From Halomicronema sp. CCY15110 (lineage in GTDB: Bacteria; Cyanobacteriota; Cyanobacteriia; Phormidesmidales; Phormidesmidaceae): DNA of 48,675 nucleotides. Numbering within the stretch: the stretch's first letter is position 1; each line of letters begins with the position of its first letter. Location of the stretch: positions 1-48,675 of the forward strand of contig NZ_JACSWC010000422.1 in the NCBI RefSeq assembly GCF_016888165.1, written 5' to 3'. The notes under the pieces were generated by a model. That model was not told the DNA's origin. It did no database searches and saw only the letters and a list, made by a program, of their open reading frames with translations. This document shows, one piece after another, positions 11,554 through 13,841 of the stretch. A program made the translations under genes and the position numbers.

Positions 11554-12282
11554 CTACGGATCTTCCGACGATAACGGCTCTGGGGCACTGTCTAACAACC
11601 CTAACAACGGGCCGATAATCGCCCCAAAGACAAAGCCCCCGGCATGGGCCCAGTAGGCAATTCCCCCCTCAGCCATGCCGATGTTGGCAGGGGCATTGAG
11701 ACTAGCCAAGCCGTAAGATGCCTGCTGCAAAAACCAAATACCCAAGTAAAACATCGCGGGAATTCGCAAGGGTAGAAAGAAGAAGCCTAGAGGCACGATA
11801 GTCAGGATGCGGACATCGGGAAATCGAAAAATATAGGCTCCCATAATGCCCGCGATCGCTCCACTCGCGCCGAGAGACGGCACCTCGGAATACATGCCAA
11901 AGAACCACTGCGTCAACGTTGCCAGAATGCCGCAGATTAAATAGAACAACAAAAAGCGGGCATGGCCGAGCTCTTCTTCAACGTTGTTCCCAAAGATCCA
12001 CAGGTAGAGCATATTGCCACCCACGTGCAAAAACCCCGCATGCATAAATTGTGCCGAAACCAGGGTGAACCACTCATGTGCCGTAAAGATGGTGAACCCG
12101 CCGGGGGCTTGCAGCGCCTGTGTGAGCTGTTCTGGAACCACCGCCCAAGTGCGAAAGAACGTCATCAGTTCCATCGGGGACAGCGTTAACTCATAGAAAA
12201 ACACCAGTAAATTGACGGCAATCAAGCCATAGGTCACATAGGGCGTAATCTTGATCGGGTTGTCATCTTTGAGAGGAACCAC
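11554..12282 (-). CDS. Rhomboid family intramembrane serine protease
   Basis: The product has about 242 residues and at least six hydrophobic segments. The serine nucleophile is in GASGAIAG (about residue 140) and the catalytic histidine in WAHAGGF (about 213). The first luminal part has the rhomboid signature HAGFLHVGGNMLYLWIFGN. It would cleave membrane proteins within the cytoplasmic or thylakoid membrane. The frame reaches a TTG at 12318, but relatives usually start near (M)VPLKDDNP, so GTG 12282 is preferred. No clear Shine-Dalgarno supports either. It is a stand-alone minus-strand gene, divergent from the riboswitch locus. Confidence 0.85.
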   Translation of the reverse strand: MVPLKDDNPIKITPYVTYGLIAVNLLVFFYELTLSPMELMTFFRTWAVVPEQLTQALQAPGGFTIFTAHEWFTLVSAQFMHAGFLHVGGNMLYLWIFGNNVEEELGHARFLLFYLICGILATLTQWFFGMYSEVPSLGASGAIAGIMGAYIFRFPDVRILTIVPLGFFFLPLRIPAMFYLGIWFLQQASYGLASLNAPANIGMAEGGIAYWAHAGGFVFGAIIGPLLGLLDSAPEPLSSEDP

Positions 12283-12559
12283 AGCACACCAATAATCTTT
12301 CAATTGGCAAGTTATCAAATGCCGCCCCCCTGCACGACCATCAACCGGATGATTCTGCTTGGGACGCTCATGACCACCGTCTCAGGGCTTCACCACGACT
12401 GACGCTTTGCTGGGTATTGAGGGGAGTGCTTGGGTGAGCCGCAAGAGCCGAAAATACAGATCCAGAGGGCGATGCAGACCTGCTTTGCGATCGCCAGTCA
12501 TCTCTTACTCACTCATGTTTACGTTGAGTCATAATTCGCCCACGATGATGATGAGACAC

Positions 12560-12588
12560 TTGACAAAAGCAAAAAATAACCGTATATT
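12560..12588 (+). promoter_or_regulatory. Sigma-70-type promoter of the DUF4278 triplet
   Basis: TTGACA (12560-12565) and TATATT (12583-12588) are separated by exactly 17 bases, near the ideal. Transcription would start about 12595-12600, a few bases before the first riboswitch. No other promoter fits between the units. Confidence 0.75.
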
Positions 12589-12595
12589 TATATAC
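12582..12595 (+). promoter_or_regulatory. NtcA-binding box (GTA-N8-TAC) over the -10 element
   Basis: GTA (12582-12584), 8 bases, TAC (12593-12595) is a full match to the NtcA consensus. It overlaps the -10 rather than sitting near -41, the position expected for repression rather than activation. Nitrogen limitation would therefore switch the locus off. Confidence 0.7.
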
Positions 12596-12605
12596 AGAAA
12601 GCAAA

Positions 12606-12670
12606 TCGTTCATCCGACCAGCACATCTGGACAGGACGGAAGTAAGAGAGTAATTCTCTGAAGGAACGCG
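12606..12670 (+). ncRNA. Glutamine riboswitch (glnA RNA / Downstream-peptide type), copy 1
   Basis: The sequence matches the glutamine aptamer pattern: CGTTC (12607-12611) pairs with GAACG (12664-12668) as P1. CC..GG pairing encloses a CCAG/CTGG hairpin. The conserved GGACGGAAGTAAG follows, then a small variable hairpin (AGAG/CTCT), and GAAGGAACGC closes it. Just after P1, CGCCTC (12669-12674) can pair with the Shine-Dalgarno GAGGCG (12710-12715), giving translational control of the next gene. Confidence 0.88.
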
Positions 12671-12720
12671 CCTCTTTCACTACACGATCAACATCACTGT
12701 TGTCATTTGGAGGCGAGATT

Positions 12721-12891
12721 ATGAGCTTACGTTATCGTGGTGCAGATTACGAACCCTGCCAGACTGGTTTCAACTACTTTGAAGAAGTCATTGGTACTTA
12801 CCGAGGTGCAGTTGTGACTCGTCGAGTTGCGACTAATGCTCCTAACCAGCATATCGATGGTTTAACCTATCGCGGTGCCAAGGTTAAGTAG
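12721..12891 (+). CDS. DUF4278 small protein, PirA-like (copy 1)
   Basis: The 56-residue product is made of the DUF4278 pattern: LRYRGADYE at the start, IGTYRGA in the middle and GLTYRGAKVK at the end, three YRG motifs in all. Synechocystis PirA, a small PII-binding regulator that limits activation of N-acetylglutamate kinase and so arginine synthesis, is, as I recall, a DUF4278 protein; the function here is inferred from that. The start ATG follows a good Shine-Dalgarno (GGAGG, spacing 7). A longer frame from TTG 12700 is unlikely because it would include the ribosome site. It differs from copies 2 and 3 mainly in residues 9-22 and 34-46. Confidence 0.85.
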   Translation: MSLRYRGADYEPCQTGFNYFEEVIGTYRGAVVTRRVATNAPNQHIDGLTYRGAKVK

Positions 12892-12908
12892 TCTGTTCAC
12901 TCATCCAA

Positions 12909-12973
12909 TCGTTCATCCGACCAGTGCATCTGGACAGGACGGAAGTAAGAGAGTAATTCTCTGAAGGAACGCG
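12909..12973 (+). ncRNA. Glutamine riboswitch, copy 2
   Basis: The aptamer is nearly identical to copy 1: CGTTC (12910-12914) pairs with GAACG (12967-12971), and GGACGGAAGTAAG and the AGAG/CTCT hairpin are kept. CGCCTCT (12972-12978) is complementary over 7 bases to AGAGGCG (13002-13008), which holds the ribosome site of the second DUF4278 gene. Only 17 bases separate it from the previous stop codon, so it has no promoter of its own. Confidence 0.88.
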
Positions 12974-13016
12974 CCTCTCGATTCATTGCAAACCATTCGC
13001 AAGAGGCGAAAATATC

Positions 13017-13187
13017 ATGACTTTACGTTATCGCGGCGTTGAATACGACACTCACACTCCTCAAGTGCAGTTGGCGGAAGAAGTAATTGGTCAATATCGG
13101 GGCGCAACCGTGACCCGCCATGTGGCTAACAACTTGCACGCCGACCACGTTGATGGTCTAGTCTATCGCGGCGCAAAAGTTCGCTAA
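13017..13187 (+). CDS. DUF4278 small protein, PirA-like (copy 2)
   Basis: The 56-residue product has the three YRG motifs of DUF4278 (LRYRGVEYD, IGQYRGATVTR, GLVYRGAKVR). It differs from copy 3 at only 7 positions, so these two arose by recent duplication; copy 1 is more distant. The ATG follows AGAGG at a spacing of 10. That ribosome site lies within the strand that pairs with the sequence after the riboswitch. It is too short for many gene callers and may be missing from existing annotations. The function is inferred as for copy 1: PII-dependent control of nitrogen metabolism. Confidence 0.85.
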   Translation: MTLRYRGVEYDTHTPQVQLAEEVIGQYRGATVTRHVANNLHADHVDGLVYRGAKVR

Positions 13188-13202
13188 TTTCTGTTTCGTT
13201 AA

Positions 13203-13267
13203 TCGTTCATCCGACCAGTGCATCTGGACAGGACGGAAGTAAGGGCACAACGCCTTGAAGGAACGCG
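13203..13267 (+). ncRNA. Glutamine riboswitch, copy 3
   Basis: CGTTC (13204-13208) pairs with GAACG (13261-13265), and the aptamer core is conserved. The variable hairpin has changed from AGAG/CTCT to an AAGG/CCTT-type stem: the sequence is different but pairing and total length are kept. CGCCTCT (13266-13272) can pair with AGAGGCG (13295-13301) over the next ribosome site. It starts 15 bases after the copy 2 stop codon. Confidence 0.88.
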
Positions 13268-13309
13268 CCTCTCATTCACTGCAAACCATTCGCAAGAGGC
13301 GAAAATATC

Positions 13310-13480
13310 ATGACTTTACGTTATCGCGGCGCTGAATACGACACTCACACTACCGAAGTGCAGTTGGCGGAAGAAGTAATTGGTCAATATCGGGGCGCAA
13401 CTGTAACCCGCCATGTCGCTAAGAACTTGCACGCCGAGCACGTCGATGGCTTGATCTATCGCGGCGCAAAAGTTAAATAG
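13310..13480 (+). CDS. DUF4278 small protein, PirA-like (copy 3)
   Basis: The 56-residue product has LRYRGAEYD, IGQYRGATVTR and GLIYRGAKVK. Compared with copy 2 the changes are V8A, P15T, Q16E, N38K, D43E, V49I and R56K, all mild, which suggests the protein is under constraint. The ATG at 13310 follows AGAGG. It is the last gene before a strong terminator at 13541. As with copy 2, its length of 56 residues means it is easily overlooked. It probably acts with its two paralogues on PII or a related partner; whether the three differ in target is unknown. Confidence 0.85.
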   Translation: MTLRYRGAEYDTHTTEVQLAEEVIGQYRGATVTRHVAKNLHAEHVDGLIYRGAKVK

Positions 13481-13540
13481 TTGAGACTTGTTCTCTAGGC
13501 CATGTTGTTTAGCGTGGCCCAGGAGTAAGAGTTAAGGAGC

Positions 13541-13588
13541 GGCGTATCTCATTGCGGCATTAAGCCAAAGATGAGATGCGCCCTTTTT
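13541..13588 (+). terminator. Rho-independent terminator of the DUF4278 triplet
   Basis: A 12-bp stem (13541-13552 with 13571-13582, one T-G pairing position) encloses an 18-base loop and is followed by CTTTTT. It closes the three-unit transcript. Confidence 0.8.
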
Positions 13589-13841
13589 ATTGGCAAACTG
13601 TCTTGGTTGGCTTCAGCAATTCTAAGGATGGCTTTCTTGGGGACTGAGCAAGCCAGTAACGCTCAGGCTGAGCAATTGCTCTAGAGCTTCGCACCGGGGT
13701 CAGACCTGAATGAAACGATAGGTTGTGTGTGCGGCCCGAAATTGGCAGCGCTGGGTCACCTCAACTGTTGTCGGAGGACAGTACAGGCAGAGATCCTGGG
13801 CTAGTAGCGCCGAACAGCGATGCGGGAAGGGGCTGAGCGTT

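Follow-up and report, generated by a model that had tools for sequence, protein, structure and literature searches.

The DNA at positions 12,560 to 12,596 of the stretch analyzed here raises the question of whether a GTA-N8-TAC box that lies on a -10 element, just ahead of a glutamine riboswitch, is an operator for NtcA or an accident of base composition. The whole stretch, called the window below, is 48,675 nt long. A sequence-only reading of it had described a full box over the TATATT element of a near-ideal promoter serving a riboswitch operon, and both parts of this description were borne out. The box, GTATATTTATATAC, is an exact match at 12582-12595, and the promoter (TTGACA, a 17-nt spacer, and TATATT) has 11 of 12 consensus bases, with the entire -10 element under the box. 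Nine nucleotides separate the box from the first of three glutamine riboswitches, all of which score above the RF01739 gathering cut-off of 35 bits.

Promoter and operon layout

The locus contains the following features.

12560-12565, + strand: -35 element TTGACA, read from the sequence; five of six homologous promoters have TTGACA at this distance too
12582-12595, + strand: NtcA-type box, exact GTA-N8-TAC, covering the -10 element (motif match, position-specific enrichment, six homologous promoters)
12583-12588, + strand: -10 element TATATT, inside the NtcA-type box (promoter scan)
12596, + strand: putative transcription start, the A that follows the box (A at this position in all 114 boxed promoters, and the gifB precedent)
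12605-12672, + strand: glutamine riboswitch aptamer 1 (RF01739, 49.8 bits; covariance model)
12669-12674, + strand: anti-Shine-Dalgarno CGCCTC, copy 1 (fold prediction)
12709-12715, + strand: Shine-Dalgarno GGAGGCG, copy 1, of which 12710-12715 is predicted to pair with 12669-12674 (sequence, fold prediction)
12721-12891, + strand: 56-aa DUF4278-only protein, copy 1 (PF14105, 38.6 bits), from the ATG at 12721; the open reading frame list has an upstream TTG at 12700
12908-12975, + strand: glutamine riboswitch aptamer 2 (RF01739, 49.8 bits; covariance model), no box in front
12972-12977, + strand: anti-Shine-Dalgarno, copy 2, predicted to pair with 13003-13008 (fold prediction)
13003-13008, + strand: Shine-Dalgarno GAGGCG, copy 2 (fold prediction)
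13017-13187, + strand: 56-aa DUF4278-only protein, copy 2 (PF14105, 48.2 bits; open reading frame, profile match)
13202-13269, + strand: glutamine riboswitch aptamer 3 (RF01739, 45.6 bits; covariance model), no box in front
13266-13271, + strand: anti-Shine-Dalgarno, copy 3, predicted to pair with 13296-13301 (fold prediction)
13296-13301, + strand: Shine-Dalgarno GAGGCG, copy 3 (fold prediction)
13310-13480, + strand: 56-aa DUF4278-only protein, copy 3 (PF14105, 46.2 bits; open reading frame, profile match)
13541-13588, + strand: probable intrinsic terminator, predicted to fold into a 12-bp outer stem with one G-T pair (13541-13552 with 13571-13582), then a T-run

The layout suggests that the three modules are carried on a single transcript. 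Gaps of only 16 and 14 nt lie between a stop codon and the next aptamer, and promoter scans covering 12200-13500 and 12890-13720 turned up nothing promoter-like between one copy and the next. The hairpin at 13541-13588 went unreported in a simple terminator scan that allows loops of 3-8 nt only, probably because of this loop limit. A full riboswitch leader precedes each copy as if each were independent, which could mean that copies 2 and 3 have promoters of their own inside the upstream genes and do not form one operon with copy 1. The short gaps, the empty promoter scans, and the lack of a box before internal copies (0 of 7 among the genomes described below) make this arrangement unlikely, and a single mRNA is the reading that we carry forward.

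A transcription start at the A that follows the box would center the box at -7.5. The -10 element of some related promoters may sit further right in the box (e.g., TACTAT), in which case the start would shift by a few bases and the overlap with the box would remain. Activating NtcA sites are centered near -41.5, as stated in the relevant passages of PMC8092223. The sections of the review by Bolay et al. (PMC6316151) on Synechocystis place NtcA sites at -30.5 for gifA and at -7.5 for gifB, and report that both genes were expressed whatever the nitrogen source in a non-segregated ntcA mutant. The precedent that the sequence-only reading had named, repression by NtcA over the core promoters of genes for glutamine synthetase inactivating factors, is thus in print in that review. 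The box at 12582-12595 overlaps the core promoter at its -10 element and lies away from -41.5, which is the placement found in NtcA-repressed promoters of the gifB type.

Association of the box with glutamine riboswitches

As a motif alone, GTA-N8-TAC is within chance in the window: five exact matches are found versus 2.77 ± 1.43 in shuffles, and 9 of 100 shuffles have at least five. The position of the box relative to the riboswitch was therefore tested. Among 59 genomes of the phylum, 51 have matches to RF01739, and the genome rows sum to 152 matches. We examined 150 loci, including the three in the window; the other two matches are in G006 and G034. From the 150 we left out G030:C428, with 20 nt of upstream sequence, and G002:C672, with 62 nt, and kept the 148 loci with at least 150 nt upstream. 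The zone tested, with the box centered 10-30 nt upstream of the aptamer, was picked after a first listing had been viewed, a post hoc choice that is immaterial given the size of the margin.

Counted over these 148 loci from 50 genomes, which are related and so not independent, an exact box lies in the zone 114 times. Dinucleotide shuffles of the same loci give a mean of 0.8 boxes in the zone and a maximum of 4 in 200, and equally wide zones further upstream that are clear of this one contain 0 to 7. At least one boxed riboswitch locus occurs in 46 of the 50 genomes (none in G009, G029, G045, or G048), and outside the window's own family the box is present at 21 of 26 loci and in 13 of 15 families. 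The spacing between GTA and TAC is specific: N8 is found 114 times, N3 23 times, N15 7 times, and none of the other spacings between 4 and 14 more than 4 times. When all 64 trinucleotide dyads with N8 are compared, GTA scores 114 and the next best 13. The position of the box relative to the riboswitch is beyond chance.

The box also distinguishes the first riboswitch of an operon from later ones. Exact boxes precede 114 of 141 first-in-operon loci and none of the seven internal tandem copies. Among the 27 first-in-operon loci that lack an exact box, 16 have five of the six box bases in the zone; mononucleotide shuffles yield 17 of 141 loci with at least five. With downstream genes classified by a YRG-type motif rather than by Pfam, the box precedes 97 of the 106 first-in-operon loci with a DUF4278-like open reading frame and 17 of the 35 with other genes. 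Box and riboswitch are strongly coupled at DUF4278 genes and less so at other genes with riboswitches. All of these riboswitches are of type 1; the type 2 model (RF01704) matched in 0 of the 59 genomes of the phylum, and also found no match in 14 controls.

The 111 distinct boxed promoters follow the pattern AAAAC-N-GTA-N8-TAC-AGAAA. All 114 boxes are followed directly by A, and in 100 of the 114 the end of the box falls inside the sequence ACAGA. An element resembling TTGACA, with at least five of six bases, is present in 86 of the 114 boxed promoters and absent in 28, and the first base of 73 of these 86 elements lies 17-23 nt before the box. The distance from box to aptamer varies, giving a putative leader of 6 to 19 nt. 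Because of this variation, the box is a DNA module that lies outside the aptamer, and the possibility that it forms part of the RNA is ruled out.

Six homologous promoters, of which the more distant are assumed to be orthologous, retain the box and ACAGAAA but vary at other bases. In five of the six, TTGACA-N16 stands before the box, and the sixth, in G013, has TTGACT-N15. The gene triplet itself also occurs in G001 and G005, which belong to the same genus, G013 has a pair of copies, and one copy is found in the stretches examined from G004, G011, and G012. Within a given triplet, copy 1 is 65-69% identical in nucleotide sequence to copies 2 and 3, which are 85-92% identical to each other. In the window, aptamers 1 and 2 are 97% identical whereas their genes are 65% identical, and this difference suggests gene conversion of the riboswitch between copies 1 and 2.

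NtcA is encoded in the same genome (L186, 379 bits versus a cut-off of 245). Upstream of this genome's own glnA gene lies GTAAAAACTGATAC-N22-TAGGAT, a GTA-N8-TAC box followed by N22 and a -10 element, which on sequence is an activator layout. It could be argued that some other dimeric regulator with the same dyad uses the boxes at riboswitch promoters, in that the NtcA model also picks up four more of the genome's proteins at scores below the cut-off (34.5-58.7 bits) and the conserved flanks AAAAC and AGAAA fall outside the consensus. We consider this very unlikely, since GTA-N8-TAC is the published NtcA consensus and since gifB, which shares this design and has been studied, is described as NtcA-controlled (PMC6316151).

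Even less credence can be given to the idea that the box arose by chance within an AT-rich -10 region and that the riboswitches alone regulate the operon. TATA-like letters do favor such a match, and the window holds somewhat more boxes than expected, yet chance would have to place the box at the same location in 114 of 148 loci where 0.8 are expected, with N8 specifically, and preserve it in six homologous promoters. Equally hard to accept is that NtcA activates this promoter in nitrogen shortage while the riboswitch opposes it, because NtcA, though commonly an activator (PMC8092223), would here act from the -10 element rather than from near -41.5, the genome's own glnA shows the activator layout, and gifB, with its box at -7.5, is reported to be repressed (PMC6316151). 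A repressor-type placement of an NtcA site, as the sequence-only reading had proposed, is supported by the position of the box on the -10 element, its retention in the six promoters, the presence of NtcA, and the contrasting layout at glnA. Binding and repression by NtcA at 12582-12595 are thus probable on these comparative grounds.

The riboswitch layer and the proposed gate

Fold prediction pairs the Shine-Dalgarno GAGGCG of each of the three leaders with a CGCCTC located directly after the aptamer stem, with an unpaired probability of 0.005-0.015. Each leader is therefore predicted to be capable of hiding its ribosome binding site. Similar pairing is common elsewhere: 78 of 112 distinct leaders have at least five Watson-Crick pairs between anti-Shine-Dalgarno and Shine-Dalgarno, versus a mean of 17 and a maximum of 28 in shuffles. 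Duplex energies were compared by swapping partners among the 69 distinct leaders whose start codon lies at least 36 nt after the aptamer. In this comparison, which ignores kinship among the leaders, own duplexes average -12.41 kcal/mol and swapped duplexes -11.04 kcal/mol, and 0 of 500 swaps were as strong. The same holds for the 21 leaders without CGCCTC (-9.54 versus -7.60 kcal/mol; 0 of 500 swaps as strong). By the stricter criterion of exact matching, 7 of 40 non-consensus anti-Shine-Dalgarno sequences pair with their own Shine-Dalgarno, compared to a mean of 4.4 and a maximum of 9 with others, so that covariation shows no significant excess by this count.

The folds predict that the aptamer stem P1 and the Shine-Dalgarno hairpin coexist. 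Therefore, secondary structure alone does not explain how glutamine would open the hairpin, and we infer the switching step from gifB, whose 5′ UTR contains a glutamine riboswitch in which glutamine binding promotes IF17 synthesis (PMC6316151). By the same analogy, the switches in the window would be turned ON by glutamine.

These elements fit a mechanism in which the core promoter of the three-gene operon carries a putative NtcA operator at 12582-12595. When nitrogen is short, NtcA activated by 2-oxoglutarate, together with PipX, would occupy the -10 element and keep RNA polymerase off. In nitrogen excess, NtcA would leave, and one mRNA with three leader-gene modules would be made. On this mRNA, a hairpin would hide each Shine-Dalgarno until glutamine binds the aptamer just upstream. 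Protein production would require both low 2-oxoglutarate and high glutamine, which amounts to a coherent AND gate. We hold this explanation as a whole, an NtcA operator on the -10 element followed by three glutamine-gated DUF4278 genes, to be highly probable. The earlier proposal that two layers act in the same direction gains support from the comparison of genomes, in which the box is N8-specific and accompanies 114 of 141 first-in-operon riboswitches and 0 of 7 internal ones.

Two-layer control by NtcA and a riboswitch is already known in kind from Synechocystis gifB, the gene for IF17, which according to PMC6316151 combines an NtcA site at -7.5 with a type 1 glutamine riboswitch in its 5′ UTR and encodes a DUF4278 domain. 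The operon in the window resembles it in each of these respects, with the box over the -10 element at what is presumably the same position. It differs from what is described for gifB in having three tandem riboswitch-gene modules after one promoter and in encoding proteins without the IF7-like C-terminal part. Prochlorococcus PMM1846 likewise is described as a small DUF4278 protein with a glutamine riboswitch and an NtcA motif in its promoter (PMC6316151). Its aptamer appears from context in that source to be of type 2, whereas those in the window are of type 1 and arranged as a triplet. Another small nitrogen-excess protein gene, pirA of Synechocystis, is repressed by NtcA near the core promoter, but its sites are at -33.5 and -48.5, its protein is a different one, and the passages on pirA in PMC8092223 mention no glutamine riboswitch of its own. 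Tandem glnA RNAs also have more than one glutamine aptamer in a row, which Weinberg et al. (PMC2864571) associate with control that is more digital; in the window, each aptamer is followed by a gene of its own.

Nowhere in the passages returned by our literature search is an NtcA box described as a general companion of glutamine riboswitches, nor is an operon with this three-riboswitch design. Within the reach of that search, two things are apparently new: how widely box and riboswitch are coupled, and an operon in which three riboswitches each precede a DUF4278-only gene. We are inclined, with reservations, toward a broader view in which box and riboswitch together make up a two-input gate that is standard in cyanobacteria and has been kept in evolution. 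The majority of type 1 glutamine riboswitch transcripts would then come from promoters with an NtcA operator on the -10 element, and the nitrogen-excess regulon would extend beyond IF17 to DUF4278-only proteins, an IF7-like protein, and part of a family of membrane-type peptides. The window would represent an extreme form, wherein one NtcA promoter feeds three separately glutamine-gated paralogues.

If this is true, the single-gene precedent of gifB becomes a rule applicable to sequence data: an NtcA box on the -10 element together with a glutamine riboswitch would mark a nitrogen-excess gene. Such a rule would list small proteins, DUF4278-only proteins among them, as candidate inhibitors of nitrogen assimilation. 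The three-module operon would also make it possible to test cleanly what effect several riboswitches have when they share an mRNA.

Small proteins of riboswitch-associated genes

DUF4278 corresponds to the N-terminal part of IF17 (PMC6316151). The three 56-aa proteins have this N-terminal domain and lack the C-terminal IF7-like part. Because their sequences end after DUF4278, they are not IF17, and an assignment of their genes as gifB is ruled out. They are basic (pI 8.1-9.4). An AlphaFold model made with 12 sequences consists mostly of strands and has a mean pLDDT of 59.8, too weak for a fold search, and a sequence search of the PDB with a 56-aa protein gave three matches only, at E values of 0.19 or worse. 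By analogy, these proteins could be inhibitors like the IFs, and a small inhibitor of a nitrogen-assimilation enzyme is our best guess for their function.

A separate 149-aa protein with DUF4278 is encoded on C203 of the same genome, and 149 aa is the size given for Synechocystis IF17 (PMC7760959). Its C-terminal part is 42% identical over 67 residues (E = 4e-15) to an 80-aa protein of G040. We take the 149-aa protein to be IF17-like and the 80-aa protein to be IF7-like, labels assigned from size and sequence features rather than from a family model. The gene for the 80-aa protein is itself preceded by a glutamine riboswitch and an NtcA box (L159, G040:C1:1849552-1849633). Given the resemblance of its product to the C terminus of an IF17-sized protein, IF7-type proteins may also be under glutamine riboswitch control.

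Several other loci deserve mention. A DUF4278-only gene at L179 (G000:C325) has no riboswitch match; its box, GTATAAGTCGCTAC, at locus position 612, is a GTA-N8-TAC with TATAAG inside and ends ~46 nt before the start codon. At L156 (G040:C1:78234-78290), a riboswitch and an NtcA box precede the gene for an 89-aa protein that has no Pfam match.

Glutamine riboswitches also precede genes for membrane-type peptides without DUF4278, such as those at L177 (G000:C181:23689-23779) and L175 (G000:C225:22932-23009). For three members tried against each collection, neither Pfam nor NCBIfam gave a match. By eye, seven stretches around such genes showed no shared neighbor, except for two same-genus pairs. 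These peptides are ~38-53 aa long, contain a single hydrophobic stretch and a motif resembling SPILCWVLPDR, and look like an undescribed family. A motif search places the class at 25 of the 148 riboswitch loci in 23 genomes; 14 of these 25 loci have no exact NtcA box, and 11 have one.
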